From Roseovarius gahaiensis (GTDB lineage: Bacteria > Pseudomonadota > Alphaproteobacteria > Rhodobacterales > Rhodobacteraceae), in NCBI RefSeq assembly GCF_011601345.1, contig NZ_JAAORB010000009.1, positions 1 through 64,000 of the forward strand: DNA of 64,000 bases, read 5' to 3'. This document shows positions 15,160 to 62,345 of the stretch, one piece after another. Every line of letters begins with the position of its first letter. Within the stretch, counting starts at the first letter, position 1. The notes under the pieces were generated by a model. The model was not told where the DNA came from, searched no databases, and saw nothing but the letters and a program-made list of their open reading frames with translations. The position numbers were made by a program, and so were the translations under genes.

Positions 15160-15223
15160 AGCTAATTAGAGCAACTGATTTGTAATCAGTAGGTCGGGAG
15201 TTCGAGTCTCTCTGGGGGCACCA
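15160..15223 (+). other. Attachment-site scar: 3' fragment of tRNA-Thr(TGT)
   Basis: The DNA matches a tRNA-Thr from a shortened D-arm onward. There is an anticodon arm ACTGA-TTTGTAA-TCAGT with anticodon TGT at 15181-15183, a T-arm with TTCGAGT, a 3' acceptor strand TGGGGGC, then A and CCA. The 5' acceptor strand (expected GCCCCC-) and part of the D-loop are missing, so it cannot fold as a tRNA. With the integrase beside it, this is the duplicated tRNA end produced by integration, marking the island's right border. Confidence 0.85.
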
Positions 15224-43584: not shown

Positions 43585-43735
43585 GTTCGCCTGCCTATTG
43601 GGGAAGTTTCGGTGTTTACCGCTCAGGTGCTAAGGGAGTCTTAGTCTTGCGCCCCGACCCCTGCAAGGGGAAGACGTATTGTTTTAGTCATGATCTCGCC
43701 CTTGAAGGGGCCTCTGCCCGTCCTAGGCTTGCGTC

Positions 43736-44953
43736 ATGGAAAACGCTTTCGGCCCTCTCCCGGCAACACGCATCGCGGCGTTGGAGCACTTGCAAAGGTT
43801 TGTGCCCAAGGCAGGCCGCGACTACGCGCGCCTGCGTAACTATGATTTGGGACCGGGCGGGCACGCTCATGTCTCCATGCTGTCCCCCTACCTGCGTCAC
43901 CGGCTTGTCACCGAAGAAGAGGTCTTGCGCAGCGTTTTAGCCCGCCACACGGCCGCCGGCGCCGAAAAATTCATCCAAGAAGTGTTTTGGCGGAGCTATT
44001 GGAAGGGCTGGCTTGAGATGCGGCCCGAGGTTTGGGCAGATTACCAAGCCGGGCTGCACGCGGCGATCAATCGTACAAAATCCGAATCCGGCTTGCGGCA
44101 GTGCTGGTCAGATGCCTGTCACGGCCAAACCGGACTAACCGCTTTCGATCACTGGGCGCAGGAGTTGATGCAAACCGGCTATCTGCACAATCACGCGCGC
44201 CTGTGGTTCGCGTCAATCTGGATCTTCACGCTGAAATTGCCGTGGGAGTTGGGGGCAGATTTTTTCCTGCGCCATCTTCTGGATGGCGATCCGGCCTCCA
44301 ACACCTTGGGCTGGCGGTGGGTGGCGGGCCTGCAAACCAAAGGCAAAACCTATCTCGCCCGCCCCGATAACATCGCACAGTTTACCGAGCGTCGGTTTCA
44401 GCCGTCTGGGCTGGCCACACATGCCCCGGCGCTGTCCGGCCCGGACCATCCACCGCGCCGTCCATTGCCCGGCCCGTCCACTTGGCCCAAAGATAAACGC
44501 ACGGGCCTTTTACTTCACGAAGACGACCTCAGCCCCGGCTTCTTGTTCGATGCCGGCCTGTCGCCGGTATCGGTGGCCGGCCTGCAAACGTCAGCGCATC
44601 GCTCGCCCTTGGCTGTATCGGATCTGGTGCAGGGGTTCACACGGGACGCACTGAACGACGCGGCACAGCGTTGGCAATCGCGCAGCGGCAATAATGGCGG
44701 GGTCCACGACACGGTCACAACGCTGGTCACATGGGCCCGGTCAAACACCTTACGGCAAATCGTGACCCCCTACGCCCCCACAGGCCCCGCCGCCGAAGGC
44801 TTGAACGATCTTGAGGAGGCGCTGCACCAGCACGACATCACTCTGATCCGTCCGATGCGCGATTATGACAGCCGCGCGTGGCCGCATGCCACGCATGGGT
44901 TTTTCCGGTTCAAGGAAAAAATCCCACAGCTTCTGGCCGCCATGGGGCTGTAA
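43736..44953 (+). CDS. Photolyase/cryptochrome-like FAD protein with atypical domain order
   Basis: A 405-residue protein. The N-terminal part (about 10-235) matches the FAD-binding helical domain of photolyases: IQEVFWRSYWKGWLE, the HNHARLWFASIW motif, then DGDPASNTLGWRWVAGLQTKG (read in pieces). In ordinary photolyases an alpha/beta antenna domain of about 130 residues comes first. Here none precedes it; instead a region of about 150 residues follows that looks alpha/beta-like (TGLLLHEDDLSP, TLVTWARSNTLRQIV, ending GFFRFKEKIP). It may be a circular permutation of the same two domains. DNA repair or photoreception cannot be told apart by eye. Confidence 0.75.
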   Translation: MENAFGPLPATRIAALEHLQRFVPKAGRDYARLRNYDLGPGGHAHVSMLSPYLRHRLVTEEEVLRSVLARHTAAGAEKFIQEVFWRSYWKGWLEMRPEVWADYQAGLHAAINRTKSESGLRQCWSDACHGQTGLTAFDHWAQELMQTGYLHNHARLWFASIWIFTLKLPWELGADFFLRHLLDGDPASNTLGWRWVAGLQTKGKTYLARPDNIAQFTERRFQPSGLATHAPALSGPDHPPRRPLPGPSTWPKDKRTGLLLHEDDLSPGFLFDAGLSPVSVAGLQTSAHRSPLAVSDLVQGFTRDALNDAAQRWQSRSGNNGGVHDTVTTLVTWARSNTLRQIVTPYAPTGPAAEGLNDLEEALHQHDITLIRPMRDYDSRAWPHATHGFFRFKEKIPQLLAAMGL

Positions 44954-47015: not shown

Positions 47016-48278
47016 TTAACCAAACATGTCCTCGGTGATCCCCGCGTACCATCCCAAAGATTCTTCATACGTGGCTTTGCGCAGGGCCGAATCCTCTCCG
47101 GTCTGGCTGATGAATCCATCGACCTTTGCGATCTTTTCATCGGTCGCCTGATACGATGCGCCCACTTTCACGCCGTCATCGGTGTTGATCAAACTCCAGC
47201 ACGTGTTGGAAAATTTCGCCGGGAACACCCGCGAGCCTGTCAGCGCACCCCGGATTGCCATCACAGCGACCTTGGCCTGACTGTTGGCGGAATATCCCGA
47301 TTTCGGCATGTCGCCTTGATTGGTCGAATCCCCCAGAACATGGATATTTTCATCCATCCGGCTTTGCATCGTGGCGGGCACCACGGGGGCCCAATTGCCT
47401 TCTGTAATGCCGGCCATCTCGCAGATGCGGCCCGCTTTTTGCGCCGGAATTACGTTACAAACGTCAACGTTTTCCACCACCCCATCGATATCAAGGTTCA
47501 TTTCGTCGGGGTTGACGCTAACATTGCCCCCCCCAAAGTCCGGGCCGATCCAGTCGATCATGCCGCCATAGTGCTTTTGCCAGCCCTCTTGGAACAACGC
47601 CATTTTCGAGAACTTGGCCTTTGGGTCGGCGATCAGGATCTTGGCCGTGGGGTTAATCTCTTTCAGCAGATGCGCCACCATGCTGACCCGCTCATAGGGG
47701 CCCGGCGGGCAACGATAGGGATTGGGCGGCGCGACCATCGCATAAAGCCCACCCTCTGGCATCGCCTCGATCTGGGCCTTCAGCAATTCGGTCTGGCTGC
47801 CCGCCTTGTAGGCATGCGGCATCTTGTTTTGCGCGGCAACACTCCAGCCCGGCACGGCATCGTCCACAAAATCAATGCCGGGGCTCAGGATCAACCGATC
47901 ATAAGGCAGCACAGCGCCACCTGCCAAGCTCACGGTCTTGGCGTCGCGGTCAATTCCAACGGCCCAGTCATGCACCACGTTCACGCCAAAATCGCTGGCC
48001 AAGGTGCCATAGCTATGGCCAATCGAACTCAGATCGCGGAAACCGCCGATATAAAGGTTCGAGAAAAAACACGTGTAATAGGCGCGGGTTGGCTCAACCA
48101 ATGTCACGTCGATTGCGCCGTCACTGTCCTTGGCGGCATAGCGCGCAGCGGTCGCACCACCGGCGCCGCCGCCCACAACCACGACACGTGGCTTGCCTTG
48201 CGCCCCCAGCATCGGGGCAGATAGCACTGTCGCAGCGGCGGCACCTGTGCCGATAAAGGCTCTTCTGTTCAAAGTCAT
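47016..48278 (-). CDS. soxF: SoxF, flavoprotein of a flavocytochrome c sulfide dehydrogenase type enzyme
   Basis: A 420-residue FAD protein with a Tat-type signal (MTLNRRAFIGTGAAAATVL), an N-terminal dinucleotide fold (VVVVGGGAGGATAARYAA) and the FCSD-flavoprotein C-terminal domain. In Paracoccus, SoxF oxidises sulfide and can stimulate the reconstituted Sox system. Its heme partner is SoxE, encoded 39 bp upstream. Last gene of the sox operon here; Paracoccus has soxG and soxH next, which are absent at this place. Confidence 0.9.
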   Translation of the reverse strand: MTLNRRAFIGTGAAAATVLSAPMLGAQGKPRVVVVGGGAGGATAARYAAKDSDGAIDVTLVEPTRAYYTCFFSNLYIGGFRDLSSIGHSYGTLASDFGVNVVHDWAVGIDRDAKTVSLAGGAVLPYDRLILSPGIDFVDDAVPGWSVAAQNKMPHAYKAGSQTELLKAQIEAMPEGGLYAMVAPPNPYRCPPGPYERVSMVAHLLKEINPTAKILIADPKAKFSKMALFQEGWQKHYGGMIDWIGPDFGGGNVSVNPDEMNLDIDGVVENVDVCNVIPAQKAGRICEMAGITEGNWAPVVPATMQSRMDENIHVLGDSTNQGDMPKSGYSANSQAKVAVMAIRGALTGSRVFPAKFSNTCWSLINTDDGVKVGASYQATDEKIAKVDGFISQTGEDSALRKATYEESLGWYAGITEDMFG

Positions 48279-48317
48279 TTTAGTCTCCTCCCTTCAAAAC
48301 GCCCGGTTGGCCCGGAG

Positions 48318-49022
48318 CTACTCAATCTCAGCGAAATACGCGGCGAGGGCCGCGATTTCCTCGTCACTCAACCGCCCGGCCATCATTTGCATGACAGGGT
48401 GCGGCCTGAGCTTGCGCTTGTAGGCATGCATCGCGACGATAAAATCTTCTTCCGGCCAATTGGTAATCGACGGAATCCCATCGTCATTTCCATCGGCCTG
48501 ATGACAGGTCTTGCATTCGCTGGACAGATACTCGCCATAGGCCGGATCACCTGCCAGTGCCAAGACCTCGTCGGGCAGGTCAACTTCGGGCGGCAGCGCG
48601 GTTGGGTCGGCCTCAGGTATGTTCTGTGGATTGTCCGAATAAATCCTGAGATACGCCAGAACATCCGCGCGGTCCTGCGGTTTCTTGATCCCGCGAAAGC
48701 TCATCCGCGTGCCACTGACCAATGCCTTGGGGTTTTCAATATAGGCGTCCAACGTGTCCAGATGCCATTCCAGCCCGTCATTCCCGGCCCGTTCCAGCCC
48801 CTTGGAATACCTGTAGTCCCCGCCGACGGATCCGGCGCGGCGGCCGAAAATCCCGTTCAGATGTGGCCCGATCGCATTTTCTGCTCCACGCCCCACCTGA
48901 TGGCAGCCCGAGCATTGGTTGAACACCTCTTTGCCGCGTTCGGCATTACCGATCTCTTCGGCCATGACCGGCCAACCGATCACCGCAAAAATACACGCGA
49001 AAACGACGCGGCCTTTGGTCAT
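48318..49022 (-). CDS. soxE: SoxE, diheme cytochrome c
   Basis: A 234-residue periplasmic protein with a signal peptide and two c-type heme sites: CSGCH (37-41) in a cytochrome c2-like N-terminal domain, and CKTCH (170-174) in a C-terminal domain resembling the FccA cytochrome. Axial Met candidates lie in TRMSFRG and MQMMAGRLS. Electron acceptor of SoxF. ATG 49022 is chosen because a signal peptide follows. A strong terminator precedes it, so soxEF may be expressed at a lower level or from their own promoter. Confidence 0.88.
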   Translation of the reverse strand: MTKGRVVFACIFAVIGWPVMAEEIGNAERGKEVFNQCSGCHQVGRGAENAIGPHLNGIFGRRAGSVGGDYRYSKGLERAGNDGLEWHLDTLDAYIENPKALVSGTRMSFRGIKKPQDRADVLAYLRIYSDNPQNIPEADPTALPPEVDLPDEVLALAGDPAYGEYLSSECKTCHQADGNDDGIPSITNWPEEDFIVAMHAYKRKLRPHPVMQMMAGRLSDEEIAALAAYFAEIE

Positions 49023-49085
49023 TGGTCCTCCTCCCGAAAGGTCCAAAACCAGCTTAGCCGGTTCATCAGCTCAAGGCAAAGAAAA

Positions 49086-49111
49086 CAGGGCCACCCGATG
49101 GGGTGGCCCTG
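49086..49111 (-). terminator. Strong hairpin between soxD and soxE
   Basis: A ten-base perfect stem CAGGGCCACC/GGTGGCCCTG with a six-base loop. On the minus strand it is followed by TTTTCTTTG. It lies 30 bases after the soxD stop and should end or strongly reduce the transcript from the soxX side. Confidence 0.8.
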
Positions 49112-49140
49112 CAACCTTCACGCGTGTGTTGCGCAAAGGG

Positions 49141-50340
49141 TTATTGCGAGAAGGATTTCAGATATTCCGTGACTGCGGCGATATCTTCATCTTTGCGCAG
49201 ACCGGCGAAAGACATTTTGGTGCCTTTGATGTAGCCGCGCGGATCCTCCATGAATTCGGCCATGGTTTCCTCGTTCCAGACCATGCCGTCGGCGCCCATC
49301 TGTTCCAATGTCTTGGAATAGCGGAAGCTGTCAACGGCAGCCATCTCGCGCCCCATCACACCGTTCAGCTGCGGGCCGACGCGGTTTTGCGCGCCCTCGC
49401 CTACTTGGTGACAGGCCTTGCACTGGCGGAACACTTGTTCACCATCTTCGACCAACCCCATGTCCAACGCCGCGGTCTCGGCCTCGGGCTCAGAGGCGGT
49501 GTCGGCAATTGCCGTCTGCTCGTTCGCTTCTTCAGCATCCGCACCAGTGTTTGCCTCTTCCATCGCCTCTTTGGCCTCGGCCTCACCCTCGTCTTCCGGG
49601 GTCACATCCAGAACCGCAGCGCGCATGGTGATTTCCACGCTATCTTTGCAGTCCTCCATGCAGGCCGCCTCGCTAAAGCGCGGGTACTCGGTCTCGGGCC
49701 GATCATCGACGATAAAGCCGTTGGCATTCGGCATTTCGACCTCAAGGAAGTTTTCATTCGACAACACGAAATCATCTTCCACTATGAAGTTCGAATACAG
49801 GATATAGGCAACGATCGCGTAGGTCTCGTCTGTCGATAGCGTCTGCGCCGCGCCATAGGGCATCGACCGATGCACGTAATCCCATGCGGTGGACAGATAC
49901 GGCCAATACGACCCGACGGTCTTCAACGGGTCTTCATCCGCCAAAGTTCCGTCACCGCCTGCCAGTTTTGGCCAGTTGCCAACGCCTTCGGCAAAATCAC
50001 CGTGGCATACGGCACATTGCGCGATGAACACCTCTTCACCATCTAGAACCGATCCCGACCCAACAGGCAGGCCCGTGCCATCCGGGGCCACGTCCAGATC
50101 CCACGCCGCGATTTCCTCGGGCAGGGCTTCACGGCCAAGCCCGATACGTTTGGCATCTGCGGCGGCCTCGGCACGCGCAGCGGCGATGAACATCATGTCC
50201 GGCGACCCGGCATCAGCGGCCACAAACGAAACCTCCGACGGCATCGGCGCCACGTTGCGGTCGGCAAAGTTATAGGCCGCCGTGAGCAGCGCAACCGCGC
50301 TCACCCCGGTCAGACCGTAAAGTTTAAGAGACTTCGACAT
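49141..50340 (-). CDS. soxD: SoxD, diheme cytochrome c subunit of sulfane dehydrogenase
   Basis: A 399-residue exported protein (signal-like helix about 8-24). The first heme domain has CAVCH (109-113), the second CKACH (307-311) with Met ligand region TKMSFAG. Between them, about residues 245-295 form a strongly acidic Glu/Ala-rich linker. With SoxC it makes Sox(CD)2, which removes six electrons from the SoxY-bound sulfane sulfur. The start overlaps the soxC end by 17 bp, showing translational coupling. Confidence 0.92.
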   Translation of the reverse strand: MSKSLKLYGLTGVSAVALLTAAYNFADRNVAPMPSEVSFVAADAGSPDMMFIAAARAEAAADAKRIGLGREALPEEIAAWDLDVAPDGTGLPVGSGSVLDGEEVFIAQCAVCHGDFAEGVGNWPKLAGGDGTLADEDPLKTVGSYWPYLSTAWDYVHRSMPYGAAQTLSTDETYAIVAYILYSNFIVEDDFVLSNENFLEVEMPNANGFIVDDRPETEYPRFSEAACMEDCKDSVEITMRAAVLDVTPEDEGEAEAKEAMEEANTGADAEEANEQTAIADTASEPEAETAALDMGLVEDGEQVFRQCKACHQVGEGAQNRVGPQLNGVMGREMAAVDSFRYSKTLEQMGADGMVWNEETMAEFMEDPRGYIKGTKMSFAGLRKDEDIAAVTEYLKSFSQ

Positions 50341-51607
50341 TCTCTGCCTCCCCGTTTTCCTTCACCCACCAAGTCTGGATGCAGTTGTTGTGATAGATCG
50401 AGTTTTCGCCGCGCACGTCACGCAACGCATCCTTGCTGGGCTGGACATAACCGGTTTCGTCATGGGCCCGCGATTGCAACAGCATCTCGCTGCCGTCCCA
50501 GTCAATTTCCAGATAAAACCGCGACAGCGCCTTGGATTGTCCCTCGGCGGCCAGTCGGGCCTGCTGCCAGTTCTTGCCGCCATCCGTGGACACATCCACA
50601 CGGGTGATGGCACCGTGACCGGACCACGCCAAGCCGGTGATCACCAGCGGGCCGGGGCCGTGTTTGATCGGGGCTTGCGGGCTGGGGCTGGTGACGACCG
50701 ATTTGGCGTCCATGACCCATGTCCACTTGCGGCTGGTGCCATCTTCCATGGTGTCGGTGTATTTCGAGGTTTCCTCGCGGCTTTCGATTGCCTGATCGGT
50801 CACCTCAACACGACGCAGCCACTTGACCCACATGTTGCCTTCCCAACCGGGAACGACCAAACGCACGGGATAGCCATGTTCTTTGCGCAGTGCCTCGCCG
50901 TTGGCCTTGAACGCCACCAGAACATCGTCCAGCGCCTTTTCCATCGGGATCGAACGCCCGTTCGAGGAGGCGTCCGCGCCTTCGACATAGACCCACTTGT
51001 CCGATAGATCGCCGGTGGTTTCCAAGCCCGCTTCGGTCAGAAGCGTGCGCAAGGACACACCGGAATATTCCATGTTGTGAATCATGCCATGGGTAAACTG
51101 CGCGCCGTTCAACTGCGCACCGGCCCATTCCATGCCCGTGTTCGCCGCGCATTCGCAGAAATACACATGGTTTTCCCGCGGGAAACGCTCAAGATCCTCG
51201 TAGGTAAAGACCAGCGGCTTGTCGACCAAACCATTGATCATCAGGCGGTAATCTTCTTTCTTAAGCTCAATCGCGCCCGAGTGGTGGCGTTCAAACGCGC
51301 AGCCCTGCGGTGTGATCGTCCCATCCAAGGCATGGATCGGCGTAAAGTTGATCGAACTGATCGTATCGGCCGTCAGCCATTCCACGTTCCGGCGGATCAC
51401 GTCGCTCTCGAACCGGATCGGCATCCCGTAAGGTGTCTCATCCACCGCGTCGCCAAAGCCGGTGGCCCAATACTGGACCTCGGTGATCAACGGGTCCGGC
51501 TCTGCGGCGCGGGCCATACCTGCCCCGGCCACAGCCCCGCCAGCAGCGACCGCGCCCTTCAGGAATGCGCGGCGCGAGGCCCCTGAGTTTTCATTGTCGG
51601 CTGTCAT
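50324..51607 (-). CDS. soxC: SoxC, molybdenum subunit of sulfane dehydrogenase
   Basis: A 427-residue sulfite-oxidase-family protein. A Tat signal (SRRAFLKGAVAAGG) is present, then the molybdopterin domain with Mo-ligand Cys153 in VYFCECAAN, then the C-terminal Mo-co dimerisation domain (about 290-400). Works with SoxD. Presence of soxCD means thiosulfate can be taken fully to sulfate without sulfur-globule storage. Confidence 0.95.
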   Translation of the reverse strand: MTADNENSGASRRAFLKGAVAAGGAVAGAGMARAAEPDPLITEVQYWATGFGDAVDETPYGMPIRFESDVIRRNVEWLTADTISSINFTPIHALDGTITPQGCAFERHHSGAIELKKEDYRLMINGLVDKPLVFTYEDLERFPRENHVYFCECAANTGMEWAGAQLNGAQFTHGMIHNMEYSGVSLRTLLTEAGLETTGDLSDKWVYVEGADASSNGRSIPMEKALDDVLVAFKANGEALRKEHGYPVRLVVPGWEGNMWVKWLRRVEVTDQAIESREETSKYTDTMEDGTSRKWTWVMDAKSVVTSPSPQAPIKHGPGPLVITGLAWSGHGAITRVDVSTDGGKNWQQARLAAEGQSKALSRFYLEIDWDGSEMLLQSRAHDETGYVQPSKDALRDVRGENSIYHNNCIQTWWVKENGEAENVEVS

Positions 51608-51693: not shown

Positions 51694-53391
51694 TTATGTG
51701 CCGCTTACCTTCACGCTTGTGTTCGGCTCCAGCGAAATGGTGCCTTGCTTTCGAATGTGGCTTTCCACCACATCCCAAATCTGCGGGCCTTCGGTGCCTT
51801 CGTTGACACTGGCCCAACCAGCCACAACGTAGTTACGCGCCGGGTCAATCGCCTCGCCCGTGCTTAGCAACGTCATGTCGGAAATCCGCTCACCCTGCGG
51901 CTTGGAGATGTCGATCGAATAGCCCATGCCACCGATGCGCACCATGTCGCCGCCCTGCTGGTAGTAGGGATCGGGGTTAAAGATGTTGTCGGCCACGTCT
52001 TCCAGAATCACCTTGATGAATTCGCCTGTCATCTCGCTGCGATAGGCTTCACCATAGGACATCGACGTCACGTTCCAGATATCGTCACGCGTGATGTCGT
52101 CACCGGGGATCAGGCTGGGGCCCCACCGCACACCGGGGCTCATCGCGATCTCGGCGTCGCGTTCACTCAGCAGCGCATCACAGATCAGATCGTCCCACGA
52201 GCCGTTGAAGTTCCCGCGACGGTATAGCAAGCTGTCGGTCGTGCCGATCACTTCGTCCAGCTCGGCCAGATAGGGCGCGCGCTGTTCGTCAATCAAGGCT
52301 GTCATGTCGGCATCTGGCTCGATCACATCGCTGAAAATCGGGATCAGCTTGTGACGGAAGCCCATCATCTTGCCGTCACGCACGTCTAGATCAACGCGGC
52401 TGACGAATTTCCCGTTCGAGCCCGAGGCAATAATGATCGTATCATCCACCAAAACCGGCTCAGGCAGCGCATCATGGGTATGGCCCGACAGGATCACGTC
52501 AATCCCGCTGACGACGCCAGCCATCTTCTTGTCCACGTCAAATCCGTTATGGCTCAGACAGACAACCAATTCGGCACCTTGGCTGCGCACTTCGTCGACC
52601 ATCTTCTGCATATTCGCGTCGCGGATGCCAAAGCTATAATCGGGGAACATCCAGCCGGGGTTCGCAATTGGCATGTAGGGGAACGCCTGACCGATCACAG
52701 CAATCTTGACGCCGCCACGTTCGTAGAATTCGTAGGGTTTGAATTCAGCCGCCGGTTCATCCCACATCGCGTCAAAGATGTTCTGACCAAGCGCATCAAA
52801 CGGCAAACCTTCCACAATCTCGCGCACACGATCCTGACCAAGCGTGAATTCCCAGTGGAACGTCATCGCGTCCGGCTTCAACGCGTTCATCACGTTGACC
52901 ATGTCCTGACCTTCGGTGTGATAGCATGTGTAAGAGCCATGCCACGTATCGCCACCATCCAGCAGCAATGCGTCAGGCCGCGCGGCTCGGATCGAATTCA
53001 CGACAGTTGCGACCCGATCCAGACCGCCGACGCGGCCATATTCCTTGGCGAGCGATGAAAAATCATTATAGGTCAGCGCATAATGCGACGGGCTGCCATC
53101 TTCGATACCGTACAGCTTGCGGAATTCGGCCCCGGTCACATGGGGCACCTCGCCTTTGTTGCTACCGACGCCGATGTTAATCTCCGGCTCGCGGAAATAG
53201 ACCGGCTTCATTTGCGCATGAATGTCTGTGATATGGATCAGCGACACGTTTCCGAACGTGTCAAATTCCAAAAGTTGGTCCTGAGTCAGCGCTTGTTGCG
53301 CGGCAAGTTTGGCCCAATTACCAAACCCACTGGCACCGTACAACGCCGAGGCCGCCATGCTGACCTGTAGAAAATCGCGACGAGAGATCAT
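51694..53391 (-). CDS. soxB: SoxB, sulfate thiohydrolase
   Basis: A 565-residue protein of the 5'-nucleotidase/metallophosphoesterase fold that cleaves sulfate from SoxY-Cys-S-sulfonates with two Mn ions. Tat signal MISRRDFLQVSM; metal motifs DIHAQ, GDTWHGS, SHNGFD and SGHTHD. A standard marker gene for thiosulfate oxidation. Stands between soxC (86 bp) and soxA (139 bp). Confidence 0.97.
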   Translation of the reverse strand: MISRRDFLQVSMAASALYGASGFGNWAKLAAQQALTQDQLLEFDTFGNVSLIHITDIHAQMKPVYFREPEINIGVGSNKGEVPHVTGAEFRKLYGIEDGSPSHYALTYNDFSSLAKEYGRVGGLDRVATVVNSIRAARPDALLLDGGDTWHGSYTCYHTEGQDMVNVMNALKPDAMTFHWEFTLGQDRVREIVEGLPFDALGQNIFDAMWDEPAAEFKPYEFYERGGVKIAVIGQAFPYMPIANPGWMFPDYSFGIRDANMQKMVDEVRSQGAELVVCLSHNGFDVDKKMAGVVSGIDVILSGHTHDALPEPVLVDDTIIIASGSNGKFVSRVDLDVRDGKMMGFRHKLIPIFSDVIEPDADMTALIDEQRAPYLAELDEVIGTTDSLLYRRGNFNGSWDDLICDALLSERDAEIAMSPGVRWGPSLIPGDDITRDDIWNVTSMSYGEAYRSEMTGEFIKVILEDVADNIFNPDPYYQQGGDMVRIGGMGYSIDISKPQGERISDMTLLSTGEAIDPARNYVVAGWASVNEGTEGPQIWDVVESHIRKQGTISLEPNTSVKVSGT

Positions 53392-61175: not shown

Positions 61176-61226
61176 TTGCGCGGCATTGTCCTTTCCGGCC
61201 CGGCGCAGCGCGCTAGACTACGAGCC

Positions 61227-62345
61227 ATGGATAGGCCCATTTTCATCGGTTCCGAAATATATCGCGGCTCAAGCTATGGGCCGCGACACCCGCTGGCCAT
61301 TCCGCGTGTCCCTACGGTGATTGATCTGTCGCGCGCCATCGGCTGGCTACCGCGCGACAGCTATCGCACCAGCCCCCGCGCGCGCCCTGCCGCGCTGACG
61401 GCCTTTCACACCCCGCGTTACGTGGCAGCCCTGCAACAGGCCGAAGCCACGGGCCAAGTCTGCGAGGGCACACGCGCCGACCATGGCCTTGGCACGCTGT
61501 CCAACCCGGTATTCTCCGAGATGTTTCGCCGCCCGGCCACCGCTGCGGGCGGTTCGCTTTTGGCTACGGAACTGCTGGCCAATGGTGGCGCTGTCTATAA
61601 CCCCGGCGGTGGCACGCATCATGGGCAGGCCGATCGCGCCAGCGGGTTTTGCTACCTCAACGATCCGGTGCTGGCCCTCAAGGCGCTGTTTGCCCAAGGG
61701 CTGACGCGGGTGGCCTATGTCGATATCGACGCCCATCACAGCGACGGGGTGGAACAAGCAATGGCAGGCACGGACGGTCTGTTGATGATCTCCACCCACG
61801 AGGAAAACCGCTGGCCCTTTACCGGCGGGCTGGACGATCATGCACAGGGCACCGCACTGAACCTGCCGCTGCCGCTTGGCGCGCAGGACGATGATTTTGC
61901 CTTGGCCCTGCACGAGATGATCTTGCCCACCGTGGCCGCGCACCGGCCACAGGCCATCGTTTTCCAATGCGGGGCCGATGCCGTGCTGGAAGACCCGCTG
62001 TCGCGGCTGGCCTTTTCAAACACCGCGCATATCGCCGCACTGCGCCATCTGCGCCCCCTTAGCCCACGGTTCCTGATGCTGGGCGGCGGCGGTTATAACC
62101 CGTGGAGCGTGGGCCGCCTGTGGACGGCGCTTTGGGCCACGCTGAGCGGCTATGACATCCCCGATCATCTGCCCACCCCGGCCCGACAGGTGCTGGAAGG
62201 GCTGAGTTGGACCCGCAAAGCCCACCTGCCCCGACCCGACCATTGGACCACCACGATTCTTGATGCGCCGCGCAATGGCCCGATCTTGGCCGAGGTAAGG
62301 CAGCGCGTGCGCCACCTTCAGGCGCGGCAAGTTGCGTGGGTCTGA
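61227..62345 (+). CDS. Histone-deacetylase-family zinc amidohydrolase
   Basis: A 372-residue protein of the HDAC/AcuC/acetylpolyamine amidohydrolase superfamily. Metal ligands and catalytic motifs: NPGGGTHHGQAD (catalytic His pair), YVDIDAHHSDGVE (zinc Asp and His) and FQCGADAVLEDPLSRL (second zinc Asp). The substrate tyrosine region is GGGGYNPWSVGR. It removes acyl groups from lysine or polyamines. ATG 61227 is chosen because family homology begins there. The decarboxylase gene starts 57 bp downstream and may be co-transcribed. Confidence 0.88.
   Translation: MDRPIFIGSEIYRGSSYGPRHPLAIPRVPTVIDLSRAIGWLPRDSYRTSPRARPAALTAFHTPRYVAALQQAEATGQVCEGTRADHGLGTLSNPVFSEMFRRPATAAGGSLLATELLANGGAVYNPGGGTHHGQADRASGFCYLNDPVLALKALFAQGLTRVAYVDIDAHHSDGVEQAMAGTDGLLMISTHEENRWPFTGGLDDHAQGTALNLPLPLGAQDDDFALALHEMILPTVAAHRPQAIVFQCGADAVLEDPLSRLAFSNTAHIAALRHLRPLSPRFLMLGGGGYNPWSVGRLWTALWATLSGYDIPDHLPTPARQVLEGLSWTRKAHLPRPDHWTTTILDAPRNGPILAEVRQRVRHLQARQVAWV

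Follow-up and report, generated by a model that had tools for sequence, protein, structure and literature searches.

The gene at positions 43736 to 44953 on the forward strand of a 64,000-nucleotide stretch of Roseovarius gahaiensis (RefSeq assembly GCF_011601345.1, contig NZ_JAAORB010000009.1, positions 1 to 64,000; the whole of this stretch is termed the window) almost certainly encodes a DNA photolyase of the NewPHL class. A preliminary description of the window, made from its letters alone, had suspected a distinct photolyase subfamily here, which domain order, fold, and tree all bear out; the subfamily is, however, already published as NewPHL (Phr7), a class described in 2020, of which the window protein is an ordinary rather than a new member. 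The same description had placed a flavin adenine dinucleotide (FAD) domain first and an alpha/beta domain last, and this order is indeed found, with a match to the Pfam family FAD_binding_7 at residues 79–216 and a modelled alpha/beta domain at 251–402. The features concerned are the following:

43736..44953, + strand: NewPHL-type photolyase gene, 405 aa (open reading frame and translation, family profile match, tree)
43760..44383, + strand: N-terminal FAD/catalytic domain, about residues 9–216, its C-terminal end being shorter than in standard photolyases
44471..44950, + strand: C-terminal alpha/beta “Z” domain plus tail, modelled as residues 246–405, with a Rossmann-like, antenna-domain-like predicted fold
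43585..43735, no strand: intergenic region between clpP (− strand, start 43584) and the photolyase gene (+), from the neighbouring open reading frames

Since full-length homologues keep the same domain order in 49 of the 149 sampled family genomes and in the 80 named loci described below, 43736–44953 is not a chance reading frame.

The FAD domain and the identity of the protein

FAD_binding_7 (E 3.5e-21) is the sole match in a Pfam scan of the 405-residue protein, and it covers profile positions 1–135 of 203, so that the domain ends early. In the alignment with Anacystis photolyase, query residue 7 stands opposite chain residue 205 (about 204), i.e., in the second half of the reference; the FAD domain thus starts at about residue 9–12, somewhat before the residue near 40 that had been proposed from the motifs. 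The best PDB sequence matches are class I and III photolyases (1tez_A, E 1.2e-15). The PDB copy searched yielded no close relative (best single-sequence E 1.2e-15, best family-profile E 4.2e-23), and both of these best matches are to a class I enzyme and to its FAD domain only.

No antenna domain precedes the FAD domain: in the scan of the window's own genome, the locus has no match to PF00875, the DNA_photolyase N-domain, even at E ≤ 10, and the standard PF00875 + PF03441 architecture is absent. With the DASH cryptochrome model TIGR02765, whose cut-off is 317.05, the protein scores 65.6 bits, and the N-domain of DPRP (PF04244) is matched in this genome only at another locus (G000:C2), where the DPRP gene is of the FeS-BCP type.

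The active-site residues were mapped via the printed alignment to Anacystis photolyase, and their conservation was counted over 60 family rows. E283, W286, R287, N349, and R352 of the Anacystis enzyme correspond to E82, W85, R86, N152, and R155, and W367, N386, W390, and W392 to W170, N189, W193, and W195; all nine are identical in 60/60 rows. We take these positions to be residues that contact the flavin or the cyclobutane pyrimidine dimer (CPD) or that form the tryptophan chain, with E82, W85, N152, and W195 presumably contacting the CPD. Complete conservation of these four residues is difficult to reconcile with a cryptochrome-like blue-light photoreceptor devoid of repair activity, which might otherwise be imagined because the FAD domain is common to the family and to cryptochromes and because the genome has other photolyase genes. 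Moreover, the window protein carries no further Pfam domain, and published NewPHL members repair CPDs, according to PMC9426592 and PMC13274461; such a photoreceptor is very improbable.

The third tryptophan of the chain, W314 in Anacystis photolyase, is replaced by R113, and no tryptophan occurs in that column in any of the 60 rows. Retention of W193 and W170 with loss of the third residue fits the D. shibae NewPHL, for which PMC8948257 speaks of “a mere Trp dyad”. The window protein has two cysteines only, C123 and C128 (the latter a cysteine in 34/60 rows), and hence no Fe-S cluster cysteine set; Phr7 likewise is described in PMC9426592 as being without the Fe-S cluster cysteines. N189 is probably the equivalent of the flavin-contacting asparagine (N395 in another protein) that PMC12083526 describes as conserved in NewPHL and in others.

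The protein therefore presents four features of the NewPHLs, namely, inverted domain order, a tryptophan dyad, absence of Fe-S cysteines, and a group apart from classes I and III. The class was founded by Emmerich et al. (2020, doi 10.1093/nar/gkaa1147); PMC9426592 and PMC13274461 present it as a CPD photolyase that acts on single-stranded DNA and has an “inverted domain topology”. It corresponds to Phr7 of Prochlorococcus. NewPHL and the window protein have in common an N-terminal FAD domain, a C-terminal Z domain, the lack of the Fe-S cysteine set, and a two-tryptophan chain, and both occur in Alphaproteobacteria, including Rhodobacteraceae. No difference was found between them, the characterised sequences not having been compared directly. 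By extension from the published NewPHLs, the window protein probably repairs CPDs in single-stranded DNA.

Several points nevertheless weigh against this assignment. Orthology to a characterised member (D. shibae A8LJA9, M. mesophilicum M7YZC8) is putative, being deduced from the architecture, the residues, and the range of taxa, and the activity, cofactor content, and DNA preference of the window protein are predictions. The equivalent of M353 is a leucine (L156) in the window protein, although methionine is found in 59/60 family rows, and the equivalent of R350 is histidine in 60/60 rows, a departure from class I. In five of the 60 rows (L040, L044, L047, L065, and L104, not the window protein), a tryptophan lies two or three positions before the W314 column, so these relatives may have a shifted third tryptophan and the two-tryptophan chain is perhaps not family-wide.

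Other photolyases resemble the window protein in part. Class I/III CPD photolyases (1owl, 4u63, 1dnp) share the FAD-domain fold, the CPD and FAD residues, and two of the three tryptophans, but they have the antenna domain first, a three-tryptophan chain, and a longer FAD domain. The short photolyase-like (SPL) proteins (Xu et al. 2021, doi 10.1093/molbev/msab191) are treated with the NewPHLs as one group in PMC13274461; however, they have an iron–sulfur cluster, as stated in PMC9649867, whereas the window protein has only its two cysteines. In the cyanobacterial Phr4/Phr5 and Phr6, presented in PMC9426592 as reversed-order photolyases, the FAD domain lies ahead of the photolyase alpha/beta domain, as it does here; that second part is termed a DNA photolyase domain in this description, on which the comparison is based, whereas the corresponding part of the window protein matches no such profile.

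The C-terminal domain and the origin of the domain order

When the full-length protein was modelled with 60 family sequences as input, the mean predicted local distance difference test score (pLDDT) was 96.0 and the predicted template modelling score 0.92, and residues 1–4 alone fell under a pLDDT of 50. Helices occupy residues 12–216 of the model; a linker leads from them to a beta/alpha domain at about 251–402, of which the closing helices run to 402. The strands of this domain (256–261, 279–283, 319–324, 341–343, and 369–371) are interleaved with helices in a Rossmann-like arrangement, and modelling residues 246–405 alone (mean pLDDT 95.6) left the elements essentially unchanged, with the closing helices regrouped. 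The strand–helix pattern that had been noticed in the last 150 or so residues hence corresponds to a confidently predicted Rossmann-like domain (whole-model mean pLDDT 96), folded rather than disordered. The closing GFFRFKEKIP, also singled out earlier, is conserved across the 60 rows: G388 and F390 are invariant, and F389, I396, and P397 nearly so.

To which known domains this fold is closest was assessed by VIA-align of 1000 Foldseek candidates against the C-terminal-domain model, the top 50 PDB rows being examined. Photolyase/cryptochrome N-domains make up 25 of these rows, or about 15 distinct proteins (7pua_Ff, named a putative DNA photolyase, is included in the count), among them 8ijy (Z 9.5, 2.8 Å over 114 residues), 1iqr (Z 9.2, 3.5 Å over 141), 1np7_A (Z 9.1, 4.0 Å over 151), and 3umv_A (Z 8.2, 3.3 Å over 155). 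The other 25 rows, 16 of which bear the title of universal stress protein, have Z values of up to 9.0 (3olq, 3.5 Å over 130). Since Z differences within 1 are counted as ties, the argument for likeness to the antenna domain stands on alignment coverage. Here, 23 of the 25 photolyase rows have 139–155 of the 160 residues aligned, reach residue 157–160, and include the closing helices (the exceptions are 8ijy, with 114 residues, and 8a1h, with 117), whereas the non-photolyase rows align 96–135 residues and end at model residue 126–142. This comparison should be read knowing that the photolyase chains, by their greater length, provide more residues for alignment, and that the ranges of 6kii, 9lpg_A, and 6k8k_D extend past the antenna domain. 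Foldseek found nothing for the C-terminal domain at E ≤ 0.001, its best E, 1.6e-3, being shared equally by plant cryptochrome 3 and Cam1; with the whole model, the best E was 4.2e-6, to photolyases, and the structural alignments mostly cover residues 1–234. The model thus suggests that the C-terminal domain is folded and antenna-like, its homology to the antenna domain being unproven.

Sequence comparisons did not reveal the kinship with the DNA_photolyase N-domain for which the preliminary description had proposed a search. A Pfam scan of 60 C-terminal domains gave PF00875 in a single one, at E 0.093. Stray matches, BLH_phosphatase among them, occurred in 5/60 domains (best E 0.0068) and were judged to be chance. 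Comparison of hidden Markov models (HMM–HMM) between the C-terminal domain and antenna domains (36 rows) gave a probability of 3.4%; the local score of 21.7 lies above the best of 30 column-shuffled controls (19.1) but is counted as nothing because it covers 21 columns only, and the global alignment is colinear with a probability of 0.7%. In the PDB, a profile search with the C-terminal domain had a best E of 0.18, with no photolyase among the five matches listed, and the full-profile search set the C-terminal stretch against the N-domain of 1tez at an insignificant −0.5 bits.

How, then, did this order of domains arise? One explanation is the circular permutation already proposed in the preliminary description. 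On this view, the antenna domain of an ancestor would have been shifted from the N-terminus to the C-terminus while keeping its position in space, and it might continue to gather light. In favour of this are the best structural matches of the isolated C-terminal domain, which are photolyase N-domains (the four named above), and the reversed-order Phr4/Phr5 and Phr6 reported for cyanobacteria in PMC9426592; the alignments to the N-domains are sequential, so there is no permutation inside the C-terminal domain itself. Against it are the missing sequence link to PF00875, the tie in Z with universal stress proteins, and the truncation of the FAD domain, which means that cutting a standard photolyase and rejoining its parts would not by itself give this protein. 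The predicted fold is no more than compatible with a strict circular permutation, and we consider a true one possible but somewhat doubtful. A literature search on circular permutation of photolyases, judged from titles and abstract openings, yielded nothing relevant.

Another possibility is that the domain is universal-stress-protein-like or nucleotidyl-transferase-like and was recruited independently of the antenna domain. The ties in Z, a Foldseek search of the isolated domain that mixes both kinds of match, and, again, the silence of the sequence comparisons are in its favour. However, all 25 non-photolyase rows stop short of the closing helices that 23 of the photolyase rows take in, and this origin appears unlikely.

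As a tentative proposal, to which we would give rather less than even odds, the Z domain of the NewPHLs would be a relocated and degenerate antenna domain, and the NewPHLs would be derived by permutation, the third tryptophan and the terminal part of the FAD domain having been lost, rather than standing near the root. The 2020 abstract of Emmerich and colleagues is said to place NewPHL near the origin of the photolyase family.

Distribution, genomic setting, and other photolyases

The family profile detects the protein in 49 of 149 sampled genomes of the same family and, at E ≤ 1e-60, in 12 of 299 genomes from a sample of the phylum, the window's genome being included in both counts. At least 590 relatives were confirmed, of which 80 named loci were kept. 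Named relatives come from Roseovarius (72%, the closest among the matches listed), Rhodovulum, Ruegeria, Tateyamaria, Curtobacterium, Frigoribacterium, Thioalkalivibrio, and Elioraea, so the protein is not confined to Alphaproteobacteria. In a FAD-domain tree of 59 rows, none of them known to be DASH, class II, or FeS-BCP, a branch with support 100/99 separates the 22 family rows from the rest, and the window protein stands beside a Roseovarius sequence with support 98/84; the bootstrap was not quite settled (0.989), and a row from the window's own genome (C74) lies on a long branch.

Among the 30 plasmid records listed, out of 154 matching, eight cover at least 80% of the query and the other 22 cover 41–56%. 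The eight relatives sit on large plasmids, e.g., NC_008043.1 (Ruegeria sp. TM1040) and NZ_CP025613.1; six are annotated as “FAD-binding domain-containing protein”, one has no annotated feature at that place, and one record is unannotated. Five pattern matches in viral contigs included no relative. Two relatives from Rhodobacteraceae metagenome-assembled genomes (L090 and L091) have one in-frame stop each within the matched range, possibly as pseudogenes, assembly errors, or gapped match ranges, and one family genome has two adjoining gene pieces (G126:C59:35907-36447; residues 8–77 and 283–403) in what looks like an internal deletion.

The window's genome has two further FAD_binding_7 genes, both in the standard order and both matching profile positions 1–202. 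For one of them, class I models come nearest (TIGR03556, 341.9 bits, under that model's strict cut-off); the best model for the other is NF007955 (175 bits, under cut-off). No DASH match over the cut-off was found in the window's genome or in any of the 149 sampled family genomes, as against one of 14 control genomes. According to the same 2020 abstract, NewPHL reportedly stands in for DASH. The DASH-less family genomes fit this idea, but the support is weak because 100 of the 149 have neither protein over the thresholds used.

In the window, clpX and clpP neighbour the photolyase gene, as do an ABC transporter and a set of genes resembling those of sulfur oxidation, and its promoter presumably lies within 43585..43735. 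Over 79 loci (78 named ones plus the window, some of them cut by contig ends), neighbours were clustered as connected components of BLAST matches among raw open reading frames and named by the window member only. The cluster with the window's clpP is present at 49 loci, and 47 of its instances lie upstream in divergent orientation; that with clpX is present at 47 loci. The NewPHL-type gene thus looks like a long-settled chromosomal gene in this lineage.

Elsewhere in the window, a row of genes at 47016–51607 (−) encodes a flavocytochrome c sulfide dehydrogenase, two cytochrome c proteins, and a sulfite-oxidase-type molybdopterin protein, and adjoins a gene for a protein with a 5'-nucleotidase C-terminal domain (51694–53391); the row resembles a portion of a sox sulfur-oxidation cluster. 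A histone-deacetylase-domain protein (Hist_deacetyl, E 2.4e-63) at 61176–62345 (+) is perhaps an acetylpolyamine amidohydrolase-like enzyme. An Rfam tRNA match at 15160–15212 (+; 36.2 bits) is absent from the ARAGORN output.

A possible mechanism and its meaning for the family

The N-terminal helical domain would bind FAD and take the CPD into its pocket. FAD would be photoreduced via W193 and W170 instead of the usual three tryptophans, after which FADH−, excited by blue light, would pass an electron to the CPD, which W85, W195, E82, and N152 would hold in place; the dimer would then split and the electron return. With the FAD domain as short as it is (profile positions 1–135, as against 1–202 in the genome's other two photolyases), the flavin pocket would be left open, and the C-terminal Rossmann-like domain, in replacing the absent end of the FAD domain, likely covers it. 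Emmerich and colleagues reportedly concluded in 2020 that the C-terminal domain seals the FAD site.

The analysis adds to the family a clear NewPHL member from a Roseovarius-like bacterium, together with a model of its two domains for which the predicted confidence is very high. An antenna-like C-terminal fold that is invisible to sequence search bears, moreover, on whether the NewPHLs are primitive or rearranged photolyases.
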